A DNA stretch of 64,000 nt from Novosphingobium sp. (GTDB taxonomy: Bacteria > Pseudomonadota > Alphaproteobacteria > Sphingomonadales > Sphingomonadaceae). Each line of letters starts with the position of its first letter. Within the stretch, counting starts at the first letter, position 1. Below are positions 1-18,237 of the stretch, in pieces. The notes beneath the pieces are model-generated. The model worked only from the letters and a program-made list of their open reading frames with translations, had not been told where the DNA came from and searched no databases. The position numbers and the translations under genes were made by a program. The DNA is taken from assembly GCA_017744735.1 (NCBI GenBank), contig JAGIAR010000003.1, positions 1-64,000 on the forward strand, in the 5' to 3' direction.

Positions 1-1062
<1,062 letters not shown>

Positions 1063-1066
<4 letters not shown>

Positions 1067-2303: not shown

Positions 2304-2322
2304 ACCTATCTCGGCGGTAGGG
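2304..2322. promoter_or_regulatory. Putative regulon operator, site A
   Basis: Sequence ACCTATCTCGGCGGTAGGG. The CCTA and TAGG halves are separated by 9 bases. Its reverse complement, with core CCTACCGCCGAGATAGG, differs from site B (7048-7066) by one base over 17. It lies between the MBL gene and the OYE gene, about 130 bases before the OYE start. I infer that it is a binding site of the MalT-type regulator at 9876-12617. Confidence 0.6.
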
Positions 2323-2334
2323 CTGCACCGTGCA

Positions 2335-3123
2335 TCACGAAACCAGCGCGCCAGGCAGGATGGGCACGCCCTTGGGCACTTTTGCCCATACCTCAGGATC
2401 GTGGCTGGGAATGACGAGTGCCCCGCATCGCTTCATCTGCGCCAACCGCCTGAGCGAGGACAGGAACAGGCCTGCGTCGTGGCAATGCTCTGGCAAGCGC
2501 AAGTCTTCGAGCGAGCGGCGCAGCGAGCAGCAATCGCCCGCCAGCACGACTTCCGCGCCCTCGATCCGAATCTTCGCCGACTGATGCCCCGGCGTGTGGC
2601 CGGGCGTTGGAAAGACGACGACCGCTCCATCGCCGAACAGGTCGTGCTCCCCCTCTATTCTCAGGAACGGCTGGCCGGTGTCGTAATCGGCACGGTCGTA
2701 GACCGGATCGCCCTCGGCTTCACCGAAAGCGTGGCAGTATTCCGCCTTCTGCACGATCACCGTCGCATTGGGGAAATAGGCGTTTCCCCCAGCATGGTCG
2801 ACATGCAGATGCGAGGCGACGATCCAGCGGACATCGGCCGGATCGACCCCGATCGCGCGCAGGCGGCAGTCGATCGTCTCGCCTTCCGCCAGATCCACGA
2901 TCCCGTCGATCGGTGTATTCGCCGGTCGCGCATAACGGGCACCGAGGCCGCTGTCGAACAGCGCCAGGCCTTTGGGATGATCGATCAGATAGGCGGTCAC
3001 GGGGATCGTGATCCGGCCCGCCTCGCCGGCCAGGAAATAACCCAGGTCCATATGGATGTGGCCGACCGTGAAACCGAACAGTTTCACGCCGTCTCCGGGC
3101 ATCTGCAGCGGAAAAGCGACCAT
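2335..3123 (-). CDS. Metallo-beta-lactamase fold hydrolase, N-acyl homoserine lactonase family
   Basis: 262 residues with no signal peptide. The dinuclear zinc motif SHLHVDHAGG (H105, H107, D109, H110) is intact. Further metal ligands are likely in PTPGHTPGHQS and LAGDCCS, and a late PSHD motif is present. This pattern and length fit the AttM/AiiB-type lactonase branch, which opens lactone rings. ATG at 3123 follows a GAGGGG ribosome site. There is no luxI or quorum-sensing receptor nearby, and the gene sits among catabolic enzymes, so a catabolic lactonase or esterase is more plausible than quorum quenching. I see no AGATAGG site in the 117 bases upstream. Confidence 0.8.
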   Translation of the reverse strand: MVAFPLQMPGDGVKLFGFTVGHIHMDLGYFLAGEAGRITIPVTAYLIDHPKGLALFDSGLGARYARPANTPIDGIVDLAEGETIDCRLRAIGVDPADVRWIVASHLHVDHAGGNAYFPNATVIVQKAEYCHAFGEAEGDPVYDRADYDTGQPFLRIEGEHDLFGDGAVVVFPTPGHTPGHQSAKIRIEGAEVVLAGDCCSLRRSLEDLRLPEHCHDAGLFLSSLRRLAQMKRCGALVIPSHDPEVWAKVPKGVPILPGALVS

Positions 3124-3206
3124 GGCGACCCCTCACGCAATTTCGTCATGCAACCGTGCCGTCCTCGCGCGCCGGCATGATAGCTGTTTCCCCGACGCCT
3201 CGAAAG

Positions 3207-3233
3207 AAGGGGCGGATCGGCCACCCGCCCCTT
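3207..3233 (-). terminator. Intrinsic terminator of the TonB receptor gene
   Basis: Stem AAGGGGCGG (3207-3215) pairs with CCGCCCCTT (3225-3233) around a 9-base loop. On the minus strand the stem is followed by CTTTC. It begins 7 bases past the stop of the TonB receptor gene and separates it from the MBL gene. Confidence 0.7.
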
Positions 3234-3240
3234 CCGCCCC

Positions 3241-5718
3241 TCATCGCTGGAGTAGAGTGTTCTTCAACGTCACCTGCAGGAAGATCGATCTCGGCAGCGT
3301 GAAACCGCTCGCGAGGTCCGAGCCGTAACCGGACGTTGCAAGCCCCGAGGGCGAGCCGGTGAAGGGATAGGCGAAAACGGTGGTCGGCAGCAGCTTGTTG
3401 GTCAGGTTGCGGCCGATCAGCGCGATCTCCCATCCGTCTTCCGGCCCCTTTAGCGCGATCTGCGCATCGTGGATCCACGCAGAAGGAGCGATCGCGCGCG
3501 GATCGTGTTCCGACATGTTGACGTAGGAGCTCGTGTATTTGCTGGTGCCGTTGAGCGACAGCGTGAGCGAGTCCGACAACGCGACATCGTAATTGAACCC
3601 GAGCGAGAGCGACAGGTCCGGCGCCCGTTCAAGCGGCTGGCCCGCAAGATCCTGCAGCGTCGGAGCAGGATCGAGTGGCGATTGATAGATGTTGCAACCC
3701 TGCGCGATCGACTGACCCGCGTAACAGCCGGCAACCGGATAGGACAGGTACCGCGCGTGCCCGTAGTTCAGCGTCGTCCGAAGCGTCAGGCCCTCGATCG
3801 CGCGCGGGCTGAACGACAGGTTGACCTCCACGCCCTGCGAGCGCGCACGGCCGGCGTTGACGATCTTCTGCGCGAGCAGTTGCGGGACGAACAGCGATGC
3901 CTGCAGGTCGCGGTAATTGTAGCGGTAGACGGTGATCGAGTAATCGAACTGACGATCCGCCAACGCGCCCTTGATGCCGCCTTCCACACCTCGGGCGGTC
4001 GACTGCTTGTAGACGGCGTCGTTGGGAACTGTGGCCGAGAAGTTCCCGGGCACGCCGTTGAACCCGCCTGAGGTGAACCCCTGGCGGTAGGCCGCATAGA
4101 GCATCGTGTCGGGGTTCGGGCGGTAGCGCAGGGTGATGTCGGGCGAGAAATTATGGAACGTCGCCTTCGCCGGATCGAACGGGATCGACTGGACCGTCGG
4201 GCTGAAACCGTTCGTCGCGGAGTAATAACGCAGGGACTCGATACCCTTCCGCTCGGTCGAGTAACGACCCCCGGCCGACAATTCGAGCTGCGAGGTGATG
4301 TCGACCGTCACCTGGCCGAAGAACGAATAGGCGTTGGTCGTAATCTTGAAGGAATCGTCGGTCGTCGGAATCGGACCCGGCATGCCGTAGATCATGTCCG
4401 AAAGCGGACTGAAGAAGATGTTTTCCGCCCGGTAAAAGAAGGTTTCGTGCTGGTAGAAGCCGCCGGCGAGAAAATTGACCGGGCCTGCGAAGGACGAGGC
4501 GAGCCGAAGCTCCTGCGTGAACTGCCGTTGATAGCCCCGGTCCGAGGAATCCAGCAGCTCGATGTCGCCAGGCGCGTAGTCGCTGCCGTAGCTCTCATTG
4601 TACCGATAATAGCCCGTCATCGAGGTAAGCGTCAGATTGTCTGACAGCTTCAGGTCCGTCGCCAGGCTCGCAAGCAGGTTCCGCTGGTTATAGAACGGCT
4701 CCGCACTCGGGAACATGTAAGGATTCATCACCGGACCCGCGGTCATGATCTTGTCGGACACGTAGCGGTCTAGCTTGCAGTCCGCATTTGCGCCGGGCAC
4801 GCCGAAGTTGAGCTGCGGAGCGCCGAGCGGGCAGTCGATATACTGGAAGGTTGATGCCAGGCCCGTCCCCCGGCTCTTGAGATCGGAATAGGCGACCTTG
4901 AGATTGATCTTGAGGCTGTCGTCGGGAGCCTCGTATTTTACCGTCGCGCGCCCGAAGATGGTCCGCTGGTTCGGCGCGGTATCCGAAGCCGCATGCGCTC
5001 CGTCGATCGCGGGATTGACCCGGTTTCTGAACCAGCCGTCCTGATCCTGATAGGCCCCGACCAGACGCACTCCGAGCGTGTCGGTCAGCGGCACCGAAAC
5101 CATGCCTTCGAAGGTCTTGCCCTTGCCCTCGAATTCGTAGGCCGAACGGAAGCGCCAGTCGAACTCGGGCCCCGGATCGGCGGAAACCAGCGAGACGATG
5201 CCGGCTATGCTGTTCTTGCCGTAGAACAGCGCCTGCGGCCCCTCGAGCACTTCGACGCGCTCCAGATCGTAGTTGCCGAGCGTCACGCCGGTACCGCGGC
5301 TGAGTTGGACGCCATCGATATTGAGCGCCACCGACTGATCGAGCGTGGGATTGGAGCCCGAGGTCCCGATGCCGCGCAGCACCAGAGACGAGCCACCGGG
5401 GCCGCTCGCCGTGCCGATCACGAGGCTGGGAACGCGCGTGGAAATCTGGGTGATCGTACTGGTGTTGTAGCGCTGCAAATCCTCGGTGTTGATCGCGGTA
5501 ATCGCGGCGGGCACGTCCTGCACGCGCTCCTCGCGCTTGCGGGCGGTAACGATGATATCGCCGTCGTTCGCGGAAGCCTGCTGGGCCACGCCCGGCCGGC
5601 CAGCTTCATCCGAGTCCGCGCCGGCGGCTTGTGCGTTCGCGGCGGAGGCTGTGAAAGCCAGCGCGAGCGAGACCGCGGCGAGACTTGCGCTTCTGGCATA
5701 TCCGGATTTCTTCAACAC
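3241..5718 (-). CDS. TonB-dependent outer-membrane receptor 1
   Basis: 825 residues. A signal peptide ends near residue 30 (AASAANAQA). A TonB box is seen in GDIIVTARKREER, then a plug domain (about residues 65-180, with LRGIGTSG and VEVLEGPQALFYGKNSIAG), then a long beta-barrel ending in a typical phenylalanine-rich strand region. The family imports scarce substrates across the outer membrane using TonB energy. The gene begins with GTG at 5718 behind GGGAG. An ATG two bases earlier (5720) opens only a two-codon frame, ATG-TGT-TGA, overlapping this start. The serine hydrolase gene ends 76 bases upstream, so the two are probably co-transcribed from the promoter near site B. Confidence 0.92.
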   Translation of the reverse strand: MLKKSGYARSASLAAVSLALAFTASAANAQAAGADSDEAGRPGVAQQASANDGDIIVTARKREERVQDVPAAITAINTEDLQRYNTSTITQISTRVPSLVIGTASGPGGSSLVLRGIGTSGSNPTLDQSVALNIDGVQLSRGTGVTLGNYDLERVEVLEGPQALFYGKNSIAGIVSLVSADPGPEFDWRFRSAYEFEGKGKTFEGMVSVPLTDTLGVRLVGAYQDQDGWFRNRVNPAIDGAHAASDTAPNQRTIFGRATVKYEAPDDSLKINLKVAYSDLKSRGTGLASTFQYIDCPLGAPQLNFGVPGANADCKLDRYVSDKIMTAGPVMNPYMFPSAEPFYNQRNLLASLATDLKLSDNLTLTSMTGYYRYNESYGSDYAPGDIELLDSSDRGYQRQFTQELRLASSFAGPVNFLAGGFYQHETFFYRAENIFFSPLSDMIYGMPGPIPTTDDSFKITTNAYSFFGQVTVDITSQLELSAGGRYSTERKGIESLRYYSATNGFSPTVQSIPFDPAKATFHNFSPDITLRYRPNPDTMLYAAYRQGFTSGGFNGVPGNFSATVPNDAVYKQSTARGVEGGIKGALADRQFDYSITVYRYNYRDLQASLFVPQLLAQKIVNAGRARSQGVEVNLSFSPRAIEGLTLRTTLNYGHARYLSYPVAGCYAGQSIAQGCNIYQSPLDPAPTLQDLAGQPLERAPDLSLSLGFNYDVALSDSLTLSLNGTSKYTSSYVNMSEHDPRAIAPSAWIHDAQIALKGPEDGWEIALIGRNLTNKLLPTTVFAYPFTGSPSGLATSGYGSDLASGFTLPRSIFLQVTLKNTLLQR

Positions 5719-5794
5719 ATCTTTTCTCCCTCGATTTCTGGAGTTTTTATTCGGCGGACGCGTGTCCCCGCGCCTTGCCGGCGGGGTCGTTGGA

Positions 5795-6967
5795 TCAGGA
5801 CGAGCCGGGCTCGCAGGCAGCCGAGATCGCGATGTCGGAAAGGCGCTGGAAGCGCTCGATGTTGGTATATTCGGGCAGCAGCTTGGTCGTCAGGCAGACG
5901 AACGACATGTCGAGCTCCGGATCGACCCAGAACAGGGTGCTGCCGGCTCCGTGGTTTCCGAAAGTTCGTGGCGTGGCCAGGGTCCCGAACTGGGTATGGC
6001 AGATTGCCTGTCCGCGCAGCAGGAAGCCGAGCCCGATATAGGCGGGATAGGGGGCCCAGCCGCGCGCCAGCGCCATTGCCTTGAATACCTCGTTGGGAGC
6101 TTCGCCGGTGCGGTTGGTCGTGGCCATTTCGATCGTCCGCGGCGACAGGATGCGCGCTCCGTCCAACTCGCCGCCGCGGCGCAGCATCTCGGCAAAGCGC
6201 AGCAGATCGCCGGCGCTGGAGACCATGCCGACCCACGGCATCTCGGCGATCTCGTCCTCGAAGGCGCCGTGCGGCCCCGGCACGCGGCTCGATGGGTGGG
6301 TTGCCGGAAAATCTGCCGGGATTTCGGGCACGATGTGCCGCGGCTTGAGATCCGCGCGGACGCCCACCGAGGTGCTGGTCATGTTCAGGGGCCCAAGCAG
6401 ATCCTGCTCGACGATATCGCGAAACGAGCGCTTCCCGGGATCGGTCCGGACCAGAATCTCGCCCATCAGTGCGTGCGCAGCCATCGGCGCGTAAGATACC
6501 TTGCCGCCCGGCTCCTCCATTCCGTGGAGATTGCGGCAGATTGCTTCGACCACCACGTCGAGCCGGTCGATCGGAAGGTCCGGCCTGGGGGTGAATACCG
6601 AAGGGAGACCGGTCTGATGGGTCAGCAGGTGATCGATCCGGATCGCGTTCCGGGGGGCGCCGGCGAATTCCGGAATGATGTCGGAAACCCGCGTAGTCAG
6701 CGCGAAACGCCCCAGTTCCACGCTGCGAAGGATCAGGACGTTGGTGAACGCCTTGGTCAGCGAGAACAGGCTGAAGACCGAGTCCGCGGCAATCCTTCGA
6801 TCGTCGGTGCTACTGTAGCTGCCCAGCGCCTCGCTGAGTCCGATCCGGCCATGGCGGCTAACGATAATGGCGGCGCCCTTGTAGGCACCCGATGCGATAT
6901 CCGCCTCGATGACCTGCTTCAAATGCTGAAGGCGGGTTGGGTCCAACCCACCGAATGCGGCTTTCAT
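5795..6967 (-). CDS. Serine hydrolase of the class C beta-lactamase/family VIII esterase fold
   Basis: 390 residues from the ATG at 6967, chosen for its GGAGAG ribosome site; a GTG 21 bases upstream is less likely. The nucleophile motif is SLTK (S69, K72). The general-base tyrosine is probably Y159 in KVSYAPM, where class C beta-lactamases would have YxN. The third motif is replaced by NHGAGS. These changes are typical of family VIII carboxylesterases rather than true beta-lactamases. No signal peptide is seen, so it is probably cytoplasmic. Operator site B lies about 80 bases upstream and the TonB receptor gene follows, which suggests hydrolysis of an imported ester or lactone. Confidence 0.82.
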   Translation of the reverse strand: MKAAFGGLDPTRLQHLKQVIEADIASGAYKGAAIIVSRHGRIGLSEALGSYSSTDDRRIAADSVFSLFSLTKAFTNVLILRSVELGRFALTTRVSDIIPEFAGAPRNAIRIDHLLTHQTGLPSVFTPRPDLPIDRLDVVVEAICRNLHGMEEPGGKVSYAPMAAHALMGEILVRTDPGKRSFRDIVEQDLLGPLNMTSTSVGVRADLKPRHIVPEIPADFPATHPSSRVPGPHGAFEDEIAEMPWVGMVSSAGDLLRFAEMLRRGGELDGARILSPRTIEMATTNRTGEAPNEVFKAMALARGWAPYPAYIGLGFLLRGQAICHTQFGTLATPRTFGNHGAGSTLFWVDPELDMSFVCLTTKLLPEYTNIERFQRLSDIAISAACEPGSS

Positions 6968-7047
6968 ACAGTCTCTCCATCCATCCACCGGCCGTGCCTG
7001 CAGGCATGGCCGACGATGAAGCTATTGCAGGTCCGCGGGCGACGATG

Positions 7048-7066
7048 ACCTACCGGCGAGATAGGG
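7048..7066. promoter_or_regulatory. Putative regulon operator, site B
   Basis: Sequence ACCTACCGGCGAGATAGGG, with CCTA and TAGG halves 9 bases apart. It nearly matches the reverse complement of site A. It lies about 80 bases before the serine hydrolase start and so would control the serine hydrolase-TonB receptor operon. Confidence 0.6.
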
Positions 7067-7187
7067 GATGGAAAAGGTTCCCGCGAGGCCGGGCGGTAGG
7101 CCGGATTGTGGGCTAAAAGCGCCCCGTTCCGCACCGGAAGCCCGGCGAACGTCGCCCGCAGTCCCGTCCAAACGCCGGATACGACAA

Positions 7188-7216
7188 CGCCTATCTCCGC
7201 GGAACGGAGATAGGCG
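7188..7216 (-). terminator. Perfect 12-bp hairpin after TonB receptor 2, containing the AGATAGG motif
   Basis: CGCCTATCTCCG (7188-7199) is perfectly complementary to CGGAGATAGGCG (7205-7216) around a 5-base loop. It starts 22 bases past the stop of TonB receptor 2 and may be its terminator, although the following minus-strand bases (TTGTCGT) form only a weak U tract. The stem also contains the CTATCT/AGATAG halves of the putative operator with 17 bases between CCTA and TAGG, so it may be an additional regulator site upstream of the serine hydrolase gene. Confidence 0.5.
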
Positions 7217-7237
7217 TGCCTGAACCGCTGCGACAGG

Positions 7238-9547
7238 TCAGAAGTTTTTGCGCAGCGTGACGAAGAATTCCCGCGGACGCGCCACCACGCGCGACCCGGT
7301 CCCGTTGAGCGAGATCACGTCGAAAGCATTCGTGTAGTAATGCTTGTCGGTGAGATTGGTGACGCCGGCGACCAGCTGCCATCCGTCGCTCGCCGGCCTG
7401 AAAGTGATATTCGCGTTAAGAATCGTACGCGATGCGATCAGATTGGTCGGCGAATTGACCGGATCGGTATAATAGCTGTCGGTGTAGTCAGCGTAGAAAC
7501 GCGGGGTGATCGTCGCGCCGTTGGCGAGCGGGATGTCGTAGGAGATCGAGCCCGACCATTTCCACTTGGGCGACATCGGCGGAACGGTGTCCAGGGTAAT
7601 TCCCGAGGCGGCCGCGTTGGGATCGATTTCGGTGAACTTGAAGTCGAGATAGCTCAGCGAACCTTCGAGCGTGAGTCCTTCGGTCGGCTTGATCGTGGTC
7701 TCGAATTCTAGGCCCTTGATGTTCGCCTTGCCGGCATTGAACGGGACGGCCGAGAGCGGGAACCAGTCCGGATCGCCCGGCTCGCCGGGATAGCCATTGC
7801 CGTCCACGAGGATGATGTTGTTGTACTTGTTGAGAAAGGCCGAGACGTTGAACCGGACCATGCCACCGGCAAGGTCGCTCTTGAAGCCGACTTCATAGGC
7901 ATCGACCCGCTCGGGATCGAACGACACCGCTTGCGAGGCGGTGAACGGGCGGGGATTGACGCCACCGCCCTTGTAGCCGGTCGAGAAGCTGGCATAGGCC
8001 ATGAACTGTTCGCTGAACCGGTAATCCACGCCAAGGCGATAGTCGAAGGAATCCCCCGAGTAGGTCGGCGGCGGGATGAAGTTCAGCGCGCCGACGCCGA
8101 ACGGGTCGTCGGGTCCGCCATTGAGCTCGACGCCCGTGTCCGGGTTCAGCCGGACGAACTTGTAGCTTTTCCTGTCGTCGGTGTAGCGGATGCCCGCGGT
8201 AAGAGTCAGGTCGGCGACCGGGCGGACCTCCAGATGCGCGAAGAGCGACTTGCTCTTGCTTTTCACCGGATCGTTCTGGATCCAGTTCAGCCCGGTGTCG
8301 GCCCAGATGCGCGACGCGACCCGGCCGAGGCTATTGAAATAATATCCGCCCAGCGTCCAGTCGACCAGGCCGTCGCCGAAGTCGCCGCCAAGGCGGAGCT
8401 CCTGGGTGAACTGGTGATAGGGGGCGTCGTTGTAGGTCAGCTGGGCGGGCAGCGGGCTGCCGTCGAGATCGATCGTGTTCCGCGAGTCGAGGTGTTCGTA
8501 GCCGGTGATCGAGGTCAGCTTCACATGGTCGGCGAGATCGATGTCGATCTGACCGCCGATCGATTCGGAGTGCGTGGTAGCCAGCGGCTGGGTGCTCCAC
8601 CCGCCTCCGGTGAAGGTGCCGTAGAAGACGTATGGGCGGGTCGGCAGGTAGCGCGGATCGATCGTGGCGGTCTGCTCGATTCCGGCCGCTTCCGAATCGT
8701 CCCGGATGATCGAGCCGAACAGATTTATCTCGATCTTGTCGGTGGGCGTATAGCGGAAGGCCAGCCTGACCCCGGTCGACTTGACGCCGCCGAGGGTGCC
8801 GAGCTTGCAGTCGCTGCCGGTCTTCTGGGTCGGGGGATCCCCCGGCAGGACGTCGCCGGGTCGATCGCAGGCAAAGTCCAGGATCTTCACGTGGCCATCG
8901 CGATGGTCCGAAAACGCCGAAACGCGCATCGCGAGATTGCCGGTCAGACCGATGTCGTAGGCACCGCGTATGTCGATCCGGTTGAAGCTGCCGTAGGTCG
9001 CCGAGATGTAACCGGAATTGTCGCCCTTCGGCTTGCGCGAGAACAGCTTGACGGCGCCGCCGATGGAGTTCTTGCCGGCAAGCGTTCCCTGCGGCCCGCG
9101 CAGGATTTCCACCCGGTCGAGATCCAGCAGTTCGAACATCGAGCCCACCATGACGCCATGGTAGATGTCGTCGATGTAGACACCGACGCCGGGCTCGAAC
9201 GCAAAGCTCGAATCGTACTGGCCGATGCCGCGGATGAACACGGCCGCGCCGGCCTGCGCGCTGTTGGCGATGTTGATGTTCACATTCGGCGCGGTCGCAC
9301 CGATCTCCGAAACATTGCTCAGTGCCTTGTTCTCGATGTCGGCGCCGGAAAGCGCCGTGATCGCGATCGGCGTGTCCTGCAGTTTCTGTTCGCGGAACTG
9401 CGCAGTAACGATGATATCGGAGTTGGCGGATGGGCCAGCCTCGTCTTCGGCATGGGCGATGCCGGGCACCGCCCATGCAGATAAAGCGGCCGCTCCAAGC
9501 AGAGCGGCGTCGAAACGGCCGCGACGGAATCGGTTCGAATTTTTCAT
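7238..9547 (-). CDS. TonB-dependent outer-membrane receptor 2
   Basis: 769 residues from ATG 9547, which has a GGGGG ribosome site; upstream in-frame starts lack one. The order is signal peptide (through about residue 33, ending GIAHAEDEA), TonB box NSDIIVTAQFREQ, plug with FIRGIGQYDSSF and EILRGPQGTLAGKNSIGG, then a beta-barrel ending VTLRKNF. The last residue is phenylalanine, as is usual for outer-membrane barrels. It resembles sphingomonad receptors found beside catabolic genes. It is transcribed divergently from the regulator, and operator site C lies between them. The substrate is unknown; it may work with receptor 1 on related compounds. Confidence 0.92.
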   Translation of the reverse strand: MKNSNRFRRGRFDAALLGAAALSAWAVPGIAHAEDEAGPSANSDIIVTAQFREQKLQDTPIAITALSGADIENKALSNVSEIGATAPNVNINIANSAQAGAAVFIRGIGQYDSSFAFEPGVGVYIDDIYHGVMVGSMFELLDLDRVEILRGPQGTLAGKNSIGGAVKLFSRKPKGDNSGYISATYGSFNRIDIRGAYDIGLTGNLAMRVSAFSDHRDGHVKILDFACDRPGDVLPGDPPTQKTGSDCKLGTLGGVKSTGVRLAFRYTPTDKIEINLFGSIIRDDSEAAGIEQTATIDPRYLPTRPYVFYGTFTGGGWSTQPLATTHSESIGGQIDIDLADHVKLTSITGYEHLDSRNTIDLDGSPLPAQLTYNDAPYHQFTQELRLGGDFGDGLVDWTLGGYYFNSLGRVASRIWADTGLNWIQNDPVKSKSKSLFAHLEVRPVADLTLTAGIRYTDDRKSYKFVRLNPDTGVELNGGPDDPFGVGALNFIPPPTYSGDSFDYRLGVDYRFSEQFMAYASFSTGYKGGGVNPRPFTASQAVSFDPERVDAYEVGFKSDLAGGMVRFNVSAFLNKYNNIILVDGNGYPGEPGDPDWFPLSAVPFNAGKANIKGLEFETTIKPTEGLTLEGSLSYLDFKFTEIDPNAAASGITLDTVPPMSPKWKWSGSISYDIPLANGATITPRFYADYTDSYYTDPVNSPTNLIASRTILNANITFRPASDGWQLVAGVTNLTDKHYYTNAFDVISLNGTGSRVVARPREFFVTLRKNF

Positions 9548-9875
9548 ACATCCCCCATGTCGGCGCTGTTCGCCGCCCAAGTCTTTGTTTTATCTGGTAT
9601 GCTCTCACCCGGAGCAGCGAACTCCCCAAGACTACTTCTGCGTTTGAAAACACTACTCTTCGGTACTATCCCAAGGAGATGTCATGGATCACCCAGCCCC
9701 GGAAATCGTGAATCGCGTTAGGGTCATATCCGGTCGAGATGCACGGCAGCCGGTCTGCGGGACTACCTATCTTCAAGGATAGGCGCGCAGTTGCGCGTCT
9801 GATCTATGCCGGAGAGACGGAGAGGTTGACCCGTCCGGGAGACGGCCGGGCAGCGGAGAGAAGGCGGGCCGAAGA
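9548..9875. other. Divergent intergenic region between TonB receptor 2 and the regulator
   Basis: 328 bases without a gene. It carries operator site C at 9765-9783. A degenerate relative, CTATCCCAAGGAGATG, is at 9666-9681 and could be a weak second site toward the receptor. I see no small ORF with a ribosome site. Both divergent promoters must lie here. Confidence 0.6.
9765..9783. promoter_or_regulatory. Putative regulon operator, site C
   Basis: Sequence ACCTATCTTCAAGGATAGG. CCTATC and GATAGG are perfectly inverted around 6 bases, giving CCTA-10-TAGG. It lies 92 bases before the regulator start and about 220 bases before TonB receptor 2, so it could mediate autoregulation and receptor control. 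Confidence 0.6.
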
Positions 9876-12617
9876 ATGACGGGGAAGACCTTCGCGGAGA
9901 TGGCCAGCGCGATTCAGCGGCCGCGGCGCCGGCGGATCACGCCGCGCGCCCTGATCGACCGGCCGAGGCTCTACTCCCTGCTCGACGCGCACGACCACGC
10001 GCGGCTGATCTACCTTCACGCGCCGGCCGGCTACGGCAAGACCATCCTGCTCGAACAATGGGCCGCACTCTGCGCCGAAGCCGGAGACGTTGTCGCTTGG
10101 GTCAGCCTCGACGCGCGCCATCACGATCCGATGATCTTCGCGACCCATCTGGACCTCGCCTTCAGCGGCCATCCCGAACCGTCCGCGCAGCCGGCCGAAA
10201 CCCGGATTTCCAATTGGCAGGAAATCGTCCGGCGCCTGTGCGACCAGTTCGCGAACGATCCTCGCCGATGCCGGATCGTGATCGACGACGCGCAGGAAAT
10301 TCACGGCTCGCGGGCGCTCGCCTGCCTGCGGACGCTGATCGACGAAGCGCCGCCGGAGATGCAGATCGTCATCGCGGCGCGGGCCGACACGGGTCTGCCG
10401 CTGGGCCGGCTGCGGGCGTGCGAGGAAATTCTCGAGCTCGGCCCGGAGGATCTCTCGTTCCAGGCGGAGGAAACGCGGCGCTATCTGGAACTCAAGGGCC
10501 TGCAGCCAGCCAATGCGGACTATGCCTGCCTGCTGCAGAGAAGGTCCGAAGGCTGGATCGTGGGGATCAAGCTGTTCTGCATGGCGCTCAACCACGAGCC
10601 CGACAACAGGCGCATCCTGGAGAACTTCACCGGGGAGCGCAGCGAGATCGCGGATTTCTTTCTCGAAGACGCCTTCTCGCGGCAACCGGCGGACATCCAG
10701 GACTTCCTGCTGCGGTCGTCGCTGATGGAACGCTTCAGCCCCGCCCTGTGCGAAGCCGCGCTCGGTATCGCGGGAAGCCGCGACCTGATCGACCGCTGCG
10801 AAGCCGCGGGCCTGTTCATCCAGCGGCTCGACGACACCCGGACCTGGTACCGCTACCACCAGCTGTTCGGGGAATTCCTGCGGCGGCACCTGCAGGACCG
10901 GATGCCGCGCCTGACCGCGCCGATCTATCGTCGCGCAGCCGAATGGCTTACCGGGACCGGAAACCACGTCGAAGCCTTCCACTGCGCGCTGCGGGGGCAG
11001 GAACCGATGCTGGCGGCAGACATCCTCGACCGGACCTGTGACGAGCTGTTCGCCCTCGGCCTGCAGCCGATGGTCCAGTCGATGGCCGAAAAGCTGCCCT
11101 CGCACATCCTGGCGCTCTACCCGCGGCTTACCCTCAGCCTCGCCTGGCGGCTTAATTCGCAGTGGCGGTTTTCCGACGCAAAGAGCCTGGTTGCCGTGGC
11201 CGAGCGGCGTCTCGGCGAGATGGCGCAGGCACCCGATGCCGATCATGCACTGCTGCGTCGGCTGCAACTTGTAGTCGCTCACCGCTCGGCCCAGATCGCG
11301 CATTCTTCCTACGACATCGAGCCGCTCGAAGCGCGCTGCGTCGAAATGCTCGGCTCGCAGCCCGAGTTCGACAGCGATCCCGACCTCATGGCCAGCTTCC
11401 ACAACTCGCTCCATTACGCGCAGCGCGAACAGTTCCAGTTCGGACGGATAGACCAGCTCGAGGCACGCGCCCGCGAGCAGCTTGCCCGTTCCGGCGGTGA
11501 CCAGGGGCTGGTTTTCACCGCCGCCATCGCCGGTTCGTCCCACTTGCTGATGGGGCAGACCGCGCGCGCGAAAGCGACGTTCGAAGCAGGGCTGGCGGTC
11601 GCCCAGCGGATATCCGGGCGGCATGACCCGCTCGGCGCGGTGGTCGCAACGGCGCTCGCGGCGGTCCATTACGAATGCGACGAAATCGCGGAGGCGCGTT
11701 CGCTGATCGATCACTACGTGCCGCTGATGACTTCGGCCGGGCTGGTCGAGCAGTTGCTGCATGGCTGGATCACCCAGGCGCGACTGCACCTGCTCGACAA
11801 TGAAGTCGATGCCGGCATCGCCACACTCGAGGAAGCCGCGCAGTTCGGGAGCAAGCAGGAGCTGGACCGCCTGCGGATCGGCGCAAGCGTCGAACACTTG
11901 CGGATATTGCTGGGTCAGGGGCGGCTGGAGGAAGCGTCGCGCCTTGCACGACGGCGCGGCCTCACCACGCACAGGGCTGCGGAAGCGACGCGGGGGCGCC
12001 AGCGCTTCACCGTGCTCGACGGCGAGGTCGCGATGGCGTGCTGCCACCTGATGGCGGCGAGCGACCGGCTGCTCGACGCGCTACGGCTTGCGAGGCAATG
12101 GCGGTCCTTCGTGTCCGGGGCACAGGCGCATTACGCGACGGTCGAATGGGACATCCTCGTGGCCGAACTGCTGCTGCTTTCGGGAGAGCGGCTGAGTGCG
12201 CAGCGCGCACTTTCGCATGCGCTCGCTCATGCGGCCCCCGCGCAGCTCGTCCGGCGCTTCGTCGATGCGCGCGAACCGGTCGCGACCCTTCTGCGGCAGA
12301 TGCTGCATTCCGGCACCGGCATGGAAAGGGCTTCGGACCAATTCAGGACCAAGCTGGCCGCGCGCATCGATCCCGCCCCGGCTGGCGAAAACGAGGGTGA
12401 GGACGACGACCTCGCAATCTTCGGGCGGATCACCAACCGCGAGGTGGAAATCCTGTCCATGGTGGCGAGCGGCCTGCCCAACCGGCAGATCGGCGATCAG
12501 CTCGGGCTGACCGAAGGCACCGTCAAGTGGTACCTGCAGCAAATCTACGACAAGCTCGGCATCCGCAACCGCAAGCTCGCGGTAGGCCGGGCCCAGAGGC
12601 TCGGCGTCATCGCGTGA
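9876..12617 (+). CDS. MalT-type (LAL) ATP-binding LuxR-family transcriptional regulator
   Basis: 913 residues. The N-terminal STAND/NTPase domain has Walker A APAGYGKT (residues 49-56) and Walker B RIVIDDA (about 133-139). The middle (about residues 340-830) is helical and TPR-like, as in MalT, where it senses the inducer. The C-terminus (about 852-907) is a LuxR helix-turn-helix: LTNREVEILSMVASGLPNRQ in family form, reading ITNREVEIL here, then GLTEGTVKWYLQQIYDKLGI. MalT-family proteins are ATP- and inducer-dependent activators. It is the only regulator in the catabolic locus, and operator-like sites surround its own gene and neighbouring units, so it is the natural candidate regulator. The inducer is unknown. 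Confidence 0.9.
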   Translation: MTGKTFAEMASAIQRPRRRRITPRALIDRPRLYSLLDAHDHARLIYLHAPAGYGKTILLEQWAALCAEAGDVVAWVSLDARHHDPMIFATHLDLAFSGHPEPSAQPAETRISNWQEIVRRLCDQFANDPRRCRIVIDDAQEIHGSRALACLRTLIDEAPPEMQIVIAARADTGLPLGRLRACEEILELGPEDLSFQAEETRRYLELKGLQPANADYACLLQRRSEGWIVGIKLFCMALNHEPDNRRILENFTGERSEIADFFLEDAFSRQPADIQDFLLRSSLMERFSPALCEAALGIAGSRDLIDRCEAAGLFIQRLDDTRTWYRYHQLFGEFLRRHLQDRMPRLTAPIYRRAAEWLTGTGNHVEAFHCALRGQEPMLAADILDRTCDELFALGLQPMVQSMAEKLPSHILALYPRLTLSLAWRLNSQWRFSDAKSLVAVAERRLGEMAQAPDADHALLRRLQLVVAHRSAQIAHSSYDIEPLEARCVEMLGSQPEFDSDPDLMASFHNSLHYAQREQFQFGRIDQLEARAREQLARSGGDQGLVFTAAIAGSSHLLMGQTARAKATFEAGLAVAQRISGRHDPLGAVVATALAAVHYECDEIAEARSLIDHYVPLMTSAGLVEQLLHGWITQARLHLLDNEVDAGIATLEEAAQFGSKQELDRLRIGASVEHLRILLGQGRLEEASRLARRRGLTTHRAAEATRGRQRFTVLDGEVAMACCHLMAASDRLLDALRLARQWRSFVSGAQAHYATVEWDILVAELLLLSGERLSAQRALSHALAHAAPAQLVRRFVDAREPVATLLRQMLHSGTGMERASDQFRTKLAARIDPAPAGENEGEDDDLAIFGRITNREVEILSMVASGLPNRQIGDQLGLTEGTVKWYLQQIYDKLGIRNRKLAVGRAQRLGVIA

Positions 12618-12646
12618 CCGTGCCGGCCCGGGCCGCCGGCGATGCC

Positions 12647-12686
12647 ACCTATCTTTCGGGGAATAGAGGAGGGTCGCGAGATAGGT
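12647..12686. promoter_or_regulatory. Putative regulon operator, site D (widely spaced halves)
   Basis: ACCTATCT (12647-12654) and AGATAGGT (12679-12686) are perfect inverted 8-mers 24 bases apart, giving 30 bases between CCTA and TAGG. The site lies between the regulator stop and the MFS gene, ending 109 bases before the MFS start. Confidence 0.6.
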
Positions 12687-12795
12687 GCGCGCAGCGCGCA
12701 AATCCTCTTTCCTGCACCGACAACAAGACCGCGCGACGGCCAGCTCACGCGAAGATCGGGGCGGCCAGCATTACGCCGCGGGAGGAGGAAGCTTG

Positions 12796-14040
12796 ATGAA
12801 CGGTACTGAAAACGCGGCCTCGGGCGCGGGCGGGACGGTGCAAACCACAAGGTCCAGCCCCCGGGGCTACGAAGCGCGGATGGTGCTGATCACCAGCCTG
12901 GTGGTTTCCACCGTCGCAGCCGACCGTTATGCGACCGGTTATCTCGGCCCCTATCTGGTCGAGGCCTTCAACATCTCCAAGGCGCAGCTCGGCGCCGTCT
13001 ATTCGATCCAGGCGGTCGCGGTGGCGGTCGCCGGTTATGCAATGGGCTTTCTGTCGGACAGGCTCGGGCGGCAGATCGCGATCCTGGTGCCGCTCATGTT
13101 GCTCGCGGCCATGGCCGCCATCGGGGTTCTCCCGGTGCAGGCCTATCTCACGCTGCTGCTGGTGCGCGCCGCATCCGGCTGCGCCCTGGGCGGCATCGTT
13201 CCCGTGACTCAGGCGGTCACGACCTCCCAGTCGAAGCCGAGCAAGGTCGGCAGGAACATCGCGATCCAGACGCTATTCCTGTTCTTCATCAGCCAGATGC
13301 TGGCGCCGATCGTGCAGACGCGCGTGGCAGACCATTGGGGCTGGCAGGCCGGCTACGCGATCTCTGCCCTGCCCTTCGTCGTCCTCGCCGTCCTGCTCGG
13401 CCTGTTCGTGAAGGATAGCGGCAAGGCCCGGCCGACCGTGGACTCGCCCGAACCGGCAAGCACCGCGATGTCGCCCGAAGCCCGGCGTACGGTTCTGCTG
13501 TGCCTGGTGATCTCGGCGGGCTTCACCTTCTGGGCGATCATCCATTCGACGTTTCTCGCGCTCTACCTGGTCGAGCGCCTCGGCTACACACCGGTCGCGG
13601 CCGGGAACACCCTCGGCATGCTGGGTGTCGCGGGCGCGGTCGGCGGGATCGGACTGCCTCTGCTGTCCGACTATATCGGCCGCCGCGGGGCGCTGATCCT
13701 CGGCATGCTGCTCGCCGCGAGCCTGCCGGTCACACTGCTGATGTGGAGCGGCCCGGCATGGGGGTTCAACATCCTGCTATTCGTCGGCTGGATCGCGATG
13801 GGTTCGCTGCCGATCCACGCGGTACTGGTGCCCAGCGACGTCGTGCCCGCGGCGCGGGTTGCATCGACCGTCGCACTGATTCTGGCGGTGGGCGAGATCC
13901 TGGGCGGTGTCGTCGGCCCGATCGCGGGTGGGGCGCTTGCCGACCGCTTCGGCGCCCAGACGCCGTTCCAGGTCGCTTTCGGAACGGCGCTGCTGAGCCT
14001 GGTCTGCGCGCTGCTGTTGCCCCGGCCGCGCAAGGCCTGA
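12796..14040 (+). CDS. MFS transporter, aromatic acid:H+ symporter-like
   Basis: 414 residues from the ATG at 12796, which follows a strong GGAGGAGG ribosome site; the open frame extends upstream through the operator but lacks a credible start. About 12 membrane segments are visible. The family signature between TM2 and TM3 reads GFLSDRLGRQIAIL, and its repeat in the second half reads LLSDYIGRRGALIL. The substrate-binding-loop region is RAASGCALGGIVPVTQAV. This pattern resembles the AAHS group (PcaK, BenK), which takes up benzoates at the inner membrane. It is expected to import the substrate or an aromatic product, consistent with pobA in the same locus. It is preceded by operator site D. 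Confidence 0.82.
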   Translation: MNGTENAASGAGGTVQTTRSSPRGYEARMVLITSLVVSTVAADRYATGYLGPYLVEAFNISKAQLGAVYSIQAVAVAVAGYAMGFLSDRLGRQIAILVPLMLLAAMAAIGVLPVQAYLTLLLVRAASGCALGGIVPVTQAVTTSQSKPSKVGRNIAIQTLFLFFISQMLAPIVQTRVADHWGWQAGYAISALPFVVLAVLLGLFVKDSGKARPTVDSPEPASTAMSPEARRTVLLCLVISAGFTFWAIIHSTFLALYLVERLGYTPVAAGNTLGMLGVAGAVGGIGLPLLSDYIGRRGALILGMLLAASLPVTLLMWSGPAWGFNILLFVGWIAMGSLPIHAVLVPSDVVPAARVASTVALILAVGEILGGVVGPIAGGALADRFGAQTPFQVAFGTALLSLVCALLLPRPRKA

Positions 14041-14068
14041 CCGGCCGGATTGCGGGCGGCAAGGTCGG

Positions 14069-14113
14069 CCGGGGTCCTCTTCCCGCGTCCAAGCGACGGG
14101 AAGAGGACCCCGG
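14069..14113. terminator. Bidirectional intrinsic terminator between convergent genes
   Basis: CCGGGGTCCTCTTCCCG (14069-14085) pairs perfectly over 17 bp with CGGGAAGAGGACCCCGG (14097-14113) around an 11-base loop. It sits exactly between the MFS stop and the hydrolase stop and can end transcription from both sides. Confidence 0.8.
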
Positions 14114-14121
14114 TCCGCAAG

Positions 14122-15072
14122 TCAGCTTTTCGGCGGGACCGCGGAGAGCAGCCAGGTCACGATCTCGTCCGCATAACGGTTCGCGGCGAGACCCTTCGAG
14201 AGATAGTGCGAGACCTCCGGATCCTCGAGCCAGATCATGTCCCGGCGCGGAGCGTTTTCGAGACTGTCGTAGATCGCCTGTGCGACGGGCGGATAGCTCA
14301 CCTCGTCGTTGATGCTGTGGACGATCGCAGTCGGAATATCGAACTCGGGCGTCCACTTGGTCGAGGTAGCGTTGCATTCCTCGGGCTTGCCGAAGTGATT
14401 GACGAAGCTCTCGGCGGAGAGGGTGACCCCCTGCCCCGGCTTGTCGCAGGGAAGTTCCTCGCCGCCTGCCATCGTGAAGCCTTCCTTCTTGTCCATCATC
14501 ATCGTGAAGCAGACCGGCTCGTATTCCTTGCCGGCGGCGATCAGATCGCGGGCGCCGTCGAGGATGCGGTCGAACTGCGCCAGCTGCTCGGGGGTTCGCC
14601 GGACCGTCCGCTCGAGATAGGGCGAGGTGATCGAGGCGAGGAACACGAAGCCCTTGACCGAGCTGTCGCGGGTCTTGGCGTAATAATAGGCGCCCCGCGG
14701 GCCGCCCAGACTGGTTCCGAGCAGGATCATGTCGGTATAGCCCCGGCTCTTCATCAGCTCTATGGCCGCCGCGATATCGTCCTTCGACGTCTCGAACAGC
14801 GTATAGAACCACGCTCCGTTGGCGGTGCGCATGTTGGCCAGCAGCAGCGCATAGCCTGCATCCATCAGCTTACGGGCAAGCGGGTTGTAGTCGTGATCGC
14901 CCTCGTTCAGCGCGCCCGAGCCTTGCGGAATCAGGATGACCGCGGTTTTTCCGGGGGCCTCCGGCTCGTAGAATATTCCGCTTAGCCGGGCAGGGCCGCT
15001 GGGACCGCCGGCCGCGAACAGGACGTGTTCGCCTTTCGGGATTTCTTCGGAAGCGGCGGTAACGGATGCCAT
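14122..15072 (-). CDS. Alpha/beta hydrolase
   Basis: 316 residues from ATG 15072 (ribosome site AGGAGAG). The nucleophile elbow is GTSLGG with S121. Candidates for the acid and base are the aspartate in HSINDEVSYPP and the histidine in DPEVSHYLSKG. An early IPQGSGALNEGDHDYNP stretch could form the oxyanion region. No signal peptide is present, so it acts in the cytoplasm on an ester, thioester or lactone. It is the last gene of the SDR-PQQ dehydrogenase-hydrolase operon, 40 bases after the dehydrogenase. A PQQ dehydrogenase followed by a hydrolase recalls the order of polyvinyl-alcohol degradation genes in sphingomonads, but the lack of a signal peptide argues against that exact function. Confidence 0.75.
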   Translation of the reverse strand: MASVTAASEEIPKGEHVLFAAGGPSGPARLSGIFYEPEAPGKTAVILIPQGSGALNEGDHDYNPLARKLMDAGYALLLANMRTANGAWFYTLFETSKDDIAAAIELMKSRGYTDMILLGTSLGGPRGAYYYAKTRDSSVKGFVFLASITSPYLERTVRRTPEQLAQFDRILDGARDLIAAGKEYEPVCFTMMMDKKEGFTMAGGEELPCDKPGQGVTLSAESFVNHFGKPEECNATSTKWTPEFDIPTAIVHSINDEVSYPPVAQAIYDSLENAPRRDMIWLEDPEVSHYLSKGLAANRYADEIVTWLLSAVPPKS

Positions 15073-15112
15073 GATGCTCTCTCCTGGATTGAACGCCGGG
15101 CCGATCGGCAAG

Positions 15113-17254
15113 CTAGTTCGGCAGGGCGAAGACAGAGACCGCCGCGGTGTTCACCGGGGGCAGTTCGATTTCGGGTGTAAGGTCTCCGAGACCCGCCGAT
15201 GTCGGGTTTCCGTTCCCGGTCACCATCGCGATATATTGCTTGCCGTCGACCGAATAAGAGATGGCGGAGGCGTTGGGGATGCCGGTCGTCACCTGTTGCC
15301 ACAACAGCTTGCCCGTCGCCTGGTCGTAGGCGGAGAAGCGCCGGTCGACCGAGCCGGTGAACAACAGGCCGCCGGCGGTCGCCAGTACGCCCATGTTGTA
15401 CTGCGCGCGCTGGTGCTGGCGCCAGCGGACCTCGCCGGTCTGCATGTCGAGCGCCGCAAGCAGGCCGTAGCGCCCGTCGCTGTTCGGCGGCGGAGCATAG
15501 TAGATGCCGACCCCGGTCGTGAGCATCGCCCTGGCAGATGGCACCATGTCCATGCACACGTCGCGCACGGTAACGAACAGCAGGCCGGTGCCCTGATTGA
15601 ACGCGGTCGGCAGCCAGTTGCGGCCGCCGCCCGCGTGCGGACAGACGTAGCGGGTTCGGGTATTGTCGGGAATCAGCGCGGGATCGACGGTCTTGTCGCC
15701 GGTGACCGGATCGATCTTCGTGACGAAGTTCTGGATGCCGAGATCGATCGTCTTGATATACTTGCCGCTGTCCGCGTCGAGCACGTCGAACAGCCCTTCC
15801 TTGCCGCTCGTCATGATGACGCGCCGTTCCAGGCCGCCAACCTTCATCTGTCCGATCACCCGTTCGAACACCCAGTCGAGATCGAACTGGTCATCCTTCA
15901 TGTGCTGGAAGTACCAGGCGAGCTTGCCGGTGCGCGGCTCGAGTGCAAGCGTCGTGTCGGTGTAGAGCGCGTCGTTATTGAGGCCGGGCTTGCGGTCGCG
16001 CAGCGGCAGCGTGTCGTAGCTCTGCGCCGTACCCCACAGCGCAAGGCCGGTTTTCGCGTCGTAGGTCCCCGAGGTCCACACCGAACCGCCCTTGCGGTCT
16101 GGACCTGGAATGCCGTTCCAGGTCTCCCCGCCCGGAGTGCCCGGCTTGGCCACCGTGTCGAAGGTCCACAGGCGCTCGCCCGTCTCTGCATCGAAGCCCG
16201 CGATCAGCCCGCCGCCGGCCTCCTGCGTGGTAAGCCCTTGCATGACCACTCCATCGGCCACCATCGGCCCGCCGGGGTTGCGGAAGCCCGGCTTGTCCGT
16301 GATCTCGGTATCCCACACCTGTTGCCCGGTGCGGGCATCCAGTGCGATCATGTGCAGGTCGGAGGTGGCGGCGTATAGCTTGTCGCCAAAGAGCGCGACG
16401 GTCTTTTTCGAGGAAAGCTGCGTGCCCTTCGGAAGACTGCGCCGGTATCGCCACAGCAGGCGGCCGCTCGCCGCGTCGAACGCCATGATCTGGTCGCCAT
16501 AGCCGAAGGCATAGAGCACTCCGTCCCTTACCAGCGGCTCGATCATCGTCTCGCCCGCCGGCAGCGGTTGCGACCACACCAGTTGCAGCTTCCCGACGTT
16601 GCCGGTGGTGATCTGCGACAGCGGCGAGAAGCCCTGGCCCGCGTGGCTGCGGCGCCAGGTCAGCCAATCGCCCGGAGCCGGGTTGTCGAGCATTGCCTGC
16701 GTGACCGGGGTGTAATCGGTGAACCGCTCCGGCGGCGTGGGCCACTTGGGAAGCGCGCGATCGGGACTCGCGCCGCCGACGCCGTATTCGGTCAGCGTAT
16801 CTGCTGGCGGCTTGGGCAGGACGATCTTGTCGAGCCTCGCCGGATCGTTGCCCAAGGCTTCGTTTCCGATTTCGGCGCCGTTCGCCTGGAGGAGGAAGGC
16901 CACGATCGCGGAATAGGTTTCTGCCGGCAGGGCGCCAGCGGCCGAAGGCGGCATTGACGAACGTATGTAGCGATCGAGCCGTGCGGCGCTCGGGCCCTGC
17001 CATTTAGCGAGAAAGGCGGGACCCTGGAGCGCCGGGGCGAACTGCCCGTCGGTCAGGTTCTTCCCGTGGCACACGGCGCAATTCTGCAGATACAGTTCCT
17101 TTCCCGAACTCACCTGCGCCGCACTCCCGGCAGACGCATCCTGCGCTGCGGCCAGCGTGACCAGCCCGAAGGTCGCCGCGGCTATTCCCCCCGCTGCGGT
17201 GGCGGCCATCGCGCCCGCCCTGACGAATTGGGGTGTTTTCCCGACCAGAGACAT
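15113..17254 (-). CDS. PQQ-dependent dehydrogenase with N-terminal cytochrome c domain
   Basis: 713 residues from ATG 17254 (ribosome site GAAGGGAAG). Order: signal sequence (about residues 1-40), cytochrome c domain (about 45-125) with heme motif CAVCH (C59, C62, H63) and probable axial methionine in SSMPPSAAG, then an eight-bladed PQQ propeller (about 190-713) with repeats such as GQQVWDTEI, GERLWTFDT and GKLLWQQV. It oxidises an alcohol in the periplasm and passes electrons to its own heme. Classical type II quinohemoproteins carry the cytochrome at the C-terminus; heme-first order is known from polyvinyl-alcohol dehydrogenase. The adjacent-cysteine pair of methanol dehydrogenases is not seen. 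It is 13 bases after the SDR gene. Confidence 0.85.
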   Translation of the reverse strand: MSLVGKTPQFVRAGAMAATAAGGIAAATFGLVTLAAAQDASAGSAAQVSSGKELYLQNCAVCHGKNLTDGQFAPALQGPAFLAKWQGPSAARLDRYIRSSMPPSAAGALPAETYSAIVAFLLQANGAEIGNEALGNDPARLDKIVLPKPPADTLTEYGVGGASPDRALPKWPTPPERFTDYTPVTQAMLDNPAPGDWLTWRRSHAGQGFSPLSQITTGNVGKLQLVWSQPLPAGETMIEPLVRDGVLYAFGYGDQIMAFDAASGRLLWRYRRSLPKGTQLSSKKTVALFGDKLYAATSDLHMIALDARTGQQVWDTEITDKPGFRNPGGPMVADGVVMQGLTTQEAGGGLIAGFDAETGERLWTFDTVAKPGTPGGETWNGIPGPDRKGGSVWTSGTYDAKTGLALWGTAQSYDTLPLRDRKPGLNNDALYTDTTLALEPRTGKLAWYFQHMKDDQFDLDWVFERVIGQMKVGGLERRVIMTSGKEGLFDVLDADSGKYIKTIDLGIQNFVTKIDPVTGDKTVDPALIPDNTRTRYVCPHAGGGRNWLPTAFNQGTGLLFVTVRDVCMDMVPSARAMLTTGVGIYYAPPPNSDGRYGLLAALDMQTGEVRWRQHQRAQYNMGVLATAGGLLFTGSVDRRFSAYDQATGKLLWQQVTTGIPNASAISYSVDGKQYIAMVTGNGNPTSAGLGDLTPEIELPPVNTAAVSVFALPN

Positions 17255-17267
17255 TGCGGCTTCCCTT

Positions 17268-18158
17268 CTACCCATCGCGCGATCCGCCGGCTCCGGCCCG
17301 GACGATTCTTGCGAACAGCGGATTGCTGGCATCGACGCCGTAATCCTCGTCCGACGCGCCTTCGAAACCGGTCATGATCGCGGCGAAGTGCTCGGCCACA
17401 CCCTCCCTGAACACGTTGTGGGTGAACAGATAGAGCCGGTTCGCCTCGATCGCGGCCAGAACCATCCTGCCGGTTTCCAGCGGATTTAGCCCGCCGGCGA
17501 ATATCGGCTCACGGTCCAGCTGGCGCTCGAACTCGGTCAGGCCGCTGTCGGCATAGGCAGCGGGGCGGAGCCGCCCGACCTGGTTGATATTGGTCTGCGT
17601 GGGGCCCGGAATGAGCAGTGTCACCCCGATGCCGGAACCGTCGAATTCGCTGGCAAGGGCCTCGCTGATCCCGTCGATTGCGGCTTTGGACGCGACATAG
17701 GGCGCCCCTCCGGGCATCGGCAGCATTCCGCCGATGGACGAGGTGTTGACGATATGGCCGTCGTCGCGGGCGGCGAAGCGCGGCAGAAAGGTCTGAATGC
17801 CGTTGACGACCCCGCCGAGATTGACCGAAAGCGTCCAGTCCCAATCGGCATAACGGCTGTCGAGTGCGCGGCCGAGCACGCCGACCCCGGCGTTGTTGCA
17901 CAGGATCGAAACCGTTCCGAGCTTGGCCTCGGCCTCGTCCGCCGCACGCTGGAAGGCGTCGCGGTCGGTTACGTCGAGCGGCAGGTACAGAACGGGGAGA
18001 TCCGGGCCGATCAATTTCCGCGCCGTGTCGAGGTGGTCTTCGCGCACGTCGGCGATCGCGACCTTGATCCCAGCAGCAAGGAACGTGCGCGCCATGCCGA
18101 GGCCGATGCCGCTGGCACCGCCGGTGATGAAGGCCGTGCGGCCTGAAAGCTCTTTCAT
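17268..18158 (-). CDS. Short-chain dehydrogenase/reductase
   Basis: 296 residues from ATG 18158 (ribosome site AGGGAGAAG). The cofactor motif is TGGASGIG (11-18), the NNAG motif is at about 88-91, and the catalytic Ser-Tyr-Lys are in VNTSSIGG (S140/S141) and YVASK (Y154, K158). D37 after the second strand (VAIADVRE) favours NAD(H). The C-terminal part is longer than average and contains a probable substrate loop. It is the first gene of the operon with the PQQ dehydrogenase and the alpha/beta hydrolase. Operator site E lies 50 bases before its start and is shared with the divergent SMP-30 gene. The substrate is unknown; alcohol or ketone chemistry is expected. Confidence 0.85.
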   Translation of the reverse strand: MKELSGRTAFITGGASGIGLGMARTFLAAGIKVAIADVREDHLDTARKLIGPDLPVLYLPLDVTDRDAFQRAADEAEAKLGTVSILCNNAGVGVLGRALDSRYADWDWTLSVNLGGVVNGIQTFLPRFAARDDGHIVNTSSIGGMLPMPGGAPYVASKAAIDGISEALASEFDGSGIGVTLLIPGPTQTNINQVGRLRPAAYADSGLTEFERQLDREPIFAGGLNPLETGRMVLAAIEANRLYLFTHNVFREGVAEHFAAIMTGFEGASDEDYGVDASNPLFARIVRAGAGGSRDG

Positions 18159-18207
18159 TGGCTTCTCCCTGTCCGCCGTGTCTGCACGGAAAACGGCCAA
18201 CGCACCT

Positions 18208-18237
18208 ACCTATCTTTTGCGGTTCGCAGAGATAGGT
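18208..18237. promoter_or_regulatory. Putative regulon operator, site E (divergent promoter)
   Basis: ACCTATCT (18208-18215) and AGATAGGT (18230-18237) are perfect inverted 8-mers 14 bases apart, giving 20 bases between CCTA and TAGG. The site lies between the divergent SDR and SMP-30 genes and may control both. Confidence 0.6.

Follow-up and report, generated by a model that had tools for sequence, protein, structure and literature searches.

Paired CCTATC/GATAGG boxes as predicted operators of a LAL/MalT-type regulator in a catabolic locus of Novosphingobium

A catabolic locus of Novosphingobium sp. carries related inverted repeats in front of almost all of its operons and a single regulatory gene in their midst, which raises the question of whether the repeats are operators of that regulator. 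The window, that is, the whole stretch of 64,000 nucleotides analysed here, begins at base 1 of its contig (contig 12), and the locus and its first operon are cut by the contig end. A preliminary description had listed five paired sites and ascribed them to a MalT-type regulator. Direct reading and a scan located all five (boxes A to E) where they had been placed, with the half-sites CCTATC/GATAGG, although each of the earlier intervals carried one extra flanking base. Our search likewise found no other regulator in the part of the window that bears the boxes.

Table. Predicted genes and paired boxes of the catabolic locus (positions within the window).
Feature	Position	Strand	Family or form	Context
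SMP-30/gluconolactonase-like protein	155-1066	-		second gene of box A operon
Old-yellow-enzyme reductase (OYE)	1063-2172	-	Pfam Oxidored_FMN; N-ethylmaleimide reductase-like	first gene behind box A
Box A	2305-2321		CCTATC-N5-GGTAGG, 1 mismatch	upstream of minus-strand OYE/SMP-30 operon
TonB-dependent receptor 1	3241-5718	-		box B operon
Serine hydrolase	5795-6988	-	class C beta-lactamase/esterase fold	behind box B
Box B	7049-7065		CCTACC-N5-GATAGG, 1 mismatch	60 bp before minus-strand serine hydrolase/TonB receptor 1 operon
TonB-dependent receptor 2	7238-9547	-		behind box C
Box C	9766-9783		CCTATC-N6-GATAGG, perfect	between TonB receptor 2 (minus) and regulator (plus)
LAL/MalT-type regulator, 913 aa	9876-12617	+	N-terminal ATPase with Walker A, MalT-like TPR region, C-terminal LuxR-type (GerE) HTH
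Box D	12648-12685		perfect half-sites, spacer N26	110 bp before MFS gene
MFS transporter	12796-14040	+	aromatic acid/H+ symporter-like	behind box D
Alpha/beta hydrolase	14122-15111	-		last of SDR/PQQ dehydrogenase/hydrolase run
PQQ alcohol dehydrogenase	15113-17332	-	with cytochrome c domain
Short-chain dehydrogenase (SDR)	17268-18158	-		behind box E, first of SDR/PQQ dehydrogenase/hydrolase run
Box E	18209-18236		perfect half-sites, spacer N16	between SDR (minus) and SMP-30 (plus)
SMP-30-like protein	18367-19287	+		divergent from SDR at box E

The gene content suggests that the locus takes up and degrades an ester- or lactone-bearing compound, because it encodes two TonB receptors, an MFS transporter, a hydrolase of class C beta-lactamase fold, an OYE, an SDR, a PQQ dehydrogenase, two SMP-30-like proteins and a lactonase-like metallo-hydrolase. 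The last of these, a metallo-beta-lactamase-fold protein (2335-3123) encoded between box A and TonB receptor 1, has no box directly before its gene and resembles AttM-type N-acyl-homoserine lactonases (136.7 bits, for a cut-off of 390). The operon behind box A had been described as OYE-SMP-30-pobA. Its OYE gene (start codon uncertain, 2172 or 2214) and its SMP-30 gene are in place, but what was called pobA amounts to no more than the N-terminal part of a flavoprotein, lying at the contig edge.

The usual form of the box is CCTATC-N6-GATAGG or its N5 equivalent. Spacers are not free and cluster at 5-6, 16 and 26, the value of 26 in box D being a single case. All 34 half-site copies read G-[AG]-T-A-G-G, with T favoured at the following position. 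We also observed a sixth pair, absent from the earlier list, at 7190-7214 (N13, perfect halves). This pair forms a perfect hairpin, CCTATCTCCG...CGGAGATAGG, with a 13-bp stem (-28.7 kcal/mol, z -8), 24 bp past the stop codon of TonB receptor 2; it holds the half-sites of the boxes and the common heptamer, at the non-matching spacer of 13. Judged by its position, it looks like a terminator.

Pattern searches, from which all genome-wide motif counts were obtained, revealed that perfect CCTATC/GATAGG pairs with spacers of 3-30 occur at 5 places in the 3.53-Mb genome, 4 of which are in this locus. These five are boxes C, D and E, the hairpin at 7190-7214, and a pair on contig 11 that forms a long hairpin of its own. 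The half-site ACCTATCT has 99 copies in the 3.53-Mb genome, 6 of them within the 15.9 kb of 2304-18237, where 0.45 would be expected (Poisson P ~8e-6). We took this expectation from the genome rate (~1.8 half-sites per 64 kb) because the value given by shuffling the window (0.24) was too low compared with the true rate. When all 6-mer inverted repeats with spacers of 0-30 were counted without bias in the three orthologous loci, CCTATC-N6 ranked top with 8 copies, the runner-up having 3.

Paired sites had been reported missing from the housekeeping part, and the remainder of the window indeed contains a single weak pair, which is intragenic (29764-29779, N4, 1 mismatch). Nor is the motif scattered genome-wide, being near-exclusive to the locus and rare in the genomes of relatives: 147 other genomes of the family hold 12 copies of the N6 pair in all. 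Allowing one mismatch in the N6 form added 2 sites in the related genome G139, both at the locus; elsewhere it yielded only stray single sites, two in the genome studied here (G000) and one in G077.

Two further genomes of the family encode orthologues of the regulator, at 60% identity in G077 and 55% in G139. Perfect pairs surround the orthologous regulator in both, accounting for 4 of the 4 pairs in G139 and 5 of the 6 in G077. Gene order differs among the three loci, and the boxes stay with orthologous genes, namely those for the serine hydrolase, the SDR, OYE/MFS, the TonB receptor and the regulator. The serine hydrolase orthologues of G077 and G139 (73-74% identity) have perfect boxes, as does, in the N6 form, the MFS orthologue of G139; the OYE orthologue of G077 is preceded, 63 bp ahead of its coding start, by a perfect N6 box, and perfect N5/N6 boxes lie upstream of the regulator orthologues. 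At the SDR, all three genomes keep the unusual N16 spacer, with perfect half-sites in G000 and G139 and 1 mismatch in G077, and share AAAAGATAGGT. Our results thus bear out the conservation upstream of orthologous genes on which the earlier proposal had been made to depend. The candidate operator is shared by several operons, conserved at their orthologues and rare elsewhere, the pattern of a cluster-situated regulon.

The regulator combines the features of LAL/MalT-type proteins: an NTPase (Pfam AAA_22 at residues 40-165, with the Walker A motif APAGYGKT kept in the three orthologues), a MalT-like TPR region (TPR_MalT, whose 45.0 bits just equal the Pfam cut-off of 45), a GerE HTH at residues 853-903 of 913, and a length of ~900 aa. 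It does not classify as MalT proper, the maltose regulator, since MalT is its top NCBIfam match at 308 bits, below the cut-off of 537, and its predicted operator core is not GGA[TG]GA. A single-protein search of the genome contigs gave no match, and an alignment-based search of the contigs returned only homologues of <=35% identity.

Distant LALs (~30% identity) carry CCTATC-N4-GATAGG ~75-170 bp upstream of their own genes. When ten such loci were scanned with spacers of 2-8, all 20 matches (<=1 mismatch) had a spacer of 4, while twelve permuted hexamers used as a control on the same DNA gave <=1 match each. An N4 box lies upstream of a Niveispirillum LAL (perfect) and of a gammaproteobacterium LAL (1 mismatch), and a Peristeroidobacter LAL has a perfect one 2.2 kb off. 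Among 93 dereplicated LALs with sufficient upstream DNA, a box occurs within 450 bp in 18 of the 21 with the recognition helix TEG[TS][VI]KWY[LM]QQ and in 1 of the 72 others, although the LALs of this count are mutually related and a P-value overstates their independence. The one box-bearing LAL among the 72 has a near-variant of the helix, VEGSVKWHLQRIYDK; the same-helix LALs with no box inside 450 bp are L074, L088 and L189. Sampling the whole class for the N4 regulator at the strict cut-off returned nothing, a result that carries no weight either way.

In a tree, the three N5/N6 regulators fall into a single clade with full support, and the N4 regulators make up a second one together with one boxless member. 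Both clades have the same recognition helix and differ just after it (GVRRRP in N4, GIRNRK in N5/N6), at residues that presumably fall where LuxR/NarL-type HTH domains carry their dimerisation (fourth) helix. We infer that the residues following the recognition helix set the spacer. Each step between the spacers 6, 16 and 26 corresponds to roughly one turn of the helix, so that the half-sites would stay on one DNA face. A code for this LAL subfamily can be proposed, for and against which we find the case evenly balanced: the helix TEGTVKWYxQQxYDK would read GATAGG, the fourth-helix residues (GVRRRP or GIRNRK) would set the spacer (4 or 5-6 bp), and the flexible LAL scaffold would accept half-sites one or two turns further apart (16, 26).

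Several N4-type loci had further features. The N4-type LAL genes in L188 and L193 are each preceded by a pair of N4 boxes with 26 bp between them; the second box has a single mismatch (CCTGTC), and the arrangement points to tandem operators. Near-identical one-mismatch N4 boxes, CGCACCTATCC.ACGAAAGGCGCA, occur in two genera (L068 18598, L075 18590). The one in L068 precedes a thiolase/3-hydroxyacyl-CoA dehydrogenase pair, and N4 regulators may control beta-oxidation besides TonB receptors. Furthermore, a 779-aa double radical-SAM protein with a CofH domain (FO synthase-like) adjoins the N4-type LAL in G314 and G352 (L068 464-2803, L071 1175-3514), and in L071 a luciferase-like monooxygenase is encoded beside it; these neighbours are possibly cofactor F420-related genes within a sphingomonad regulon.

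Most start codons lie 50-144 bp beyond the end of their box, and that of TonB receptor 2 farther, at 218 bp. Many autoregulatory boxes of the N4 clade are followed, after ~9 nt, by a TTGC -35-like element. For N6 boxes, CTA near +22 was found in 6 of 21 against 0.56 expected, a figure before any multiple-testing correction, and is suggestive of part of a -10 element. As a -10, it would weakly hint that the box overlies the -35, as in the Actinoplanes regulon.

Taken together, boxes A-E are very probably operators of the LAL/MalT-type regulator encoded among them. We assign them to it because they are confined to the locus, conserved with the same genes and the same regulator family, track the recognition helix, and stand beside the only regulator in the stretch, and because a MalT of Actinoplanes is an activator that works from a similar palindrome of hexamers (PMC7567727). 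The half-site carried by distant LALs and the link between box and helix lend independent support to the regulon proposed at the outset. Points that weigh against the assignment are the three same-helix LALs with no nearby box, the single occurrence of a 26-bp spacer, the mismatch in each of boxes A and B, the no more than suggestive -10 element of the N6 promoters and the truncation of the locus. The same operators could serve a regulator that represses until released by an inducer, which we regard as unlikely. A LAL repressor, SCO6993, is known in Streptomyces (PMC9628970), and a box overlapping the -35, as the CTA near +22 would imply, is a position open to a repressor too; MalT and the Actinoplanes MalT are nevertheless activators, and the N4 clade box just upstream of the TTGC element occupies an activator position.

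Less probable still is that the boxes bind another protein encoded elsewhere, with the LAL regulator only one of its targets. Co-location alone cannot tell a regulator from an operator-bearing target, yet the LAL is the regulator beside the boxes in three diverged loci, LALs of ~30% identity keep adjacent half-sites, and another protein would not explain why the presence of a box depends on the LAL's own recognition helix. We give hardly any credence to a third reading, in which the repeats are RNA hairpins (terminators or attenuators) or mobile REP-like elements. REP-like elements should be spread genome-wide, yet the pairs are near-exclusive to the locus. The pair at 7190-7214 does fold strongly just past a stop codon and box E folds better than shuffled sequences, but box B is only weakly better than shuffles and box A no better. 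Moreover, the boxes lie upstream of genes, several of them between divergent genes, and are kept with orthologous genes while their inner bases vary, conservation being confined to the half-sites. On the comparison of folding with shuffles, the RNA-hairpin reading was rejected for all but 7190-7214.

With the regulator acting as an activator on boxes A-E, the system might operate as follows. The ATP-binding regulator would sense an inducer derived from the substrate of the locus and oligomerise, and its C-terminal LuxR-type HTH domains would bind two GATAGG half-sites on one DNA face, accommodating a spacer of 5-6 or one that is longer by one or two turns of the helix (16, 26). Bound at or just upstream of the -35, it would recruit RNA polymerase and thereby activate import (the two TonB receptors, the MFS transporter), ester and lactone hydrolysis (the serine hydrolase, the SMP-30s), redox steps (OYE, SDR, PQQ dehydrogenase) and its own gene.

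To our knowledge, operators are known for few LAL regulators. The consensus site of SCO6993 could not be predicted, according to the authors of its study (PMC9628970). We found no prior report of the half-site, the clade-specific spacer, the helix link or such a sphingomonad LAL in the literature searched, which included few subscription journals and did not extend to RegPrecise-type databases. In the present analysis, sequence alone connects the half-site and its spacer to the recognition helix and the target genes in many genomes. The regulons of orphan LAL regulators would become predictable in sphingomonads and some other Proteobacteria, and the boxes would delimit the gene set of one catabolic pathway. 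The N4 and N5/N6 clades provide a natural experiment on how the spacing of an operator is determined by a LuxR-type dimer.

The inner bases of the lux box differ from those of the CCTATC/GATAGG boxes, and the regulator described here is of another class than quorum-sensing LuxR, without the LuxR-type signal domain. The two have in common a GerE-type HTH, and an N6 box with one flanking base per side spans 20 bp, as does the inverted repeat of the lux box (PMC9628970). With the MalT of Escherichia coli and Klebsiella, our regulator shares the domain order of ATPase, TPR region and LuxR-type HTH. In contrast, its score falls short of that family (308 bits against 537 in NCBIfam) and its core hexamer differs from that of the MalT box, GGGGA[TG]GAGG, whose core GGA[TG]GA occurs in repeated arrangements (PMC7567727, PMC9628970). 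The closest parallel known is the MalT of Actinoplanes sp. SE50/110, an activator that uses TCATCC-N5-GGATGA, with the 3' end of the palindrome 34.4 nt upstream of the start site (PMC7567727). There too, a LuxR-family MalT-like regulator is encoded inside the region that it controls, and a short-spacer hexamer inverted repeat, conserved in related species, precedes many operons of one large region (PMC7567727). The Novosphingobium system differs in its hexamer (CCTATC/GATAGG), in its spacers (5-6, with 4 in the sister clade and variants of 16 and 26) and in being a catabolic locus with TonB receptors, whose boxes are predicted operators.
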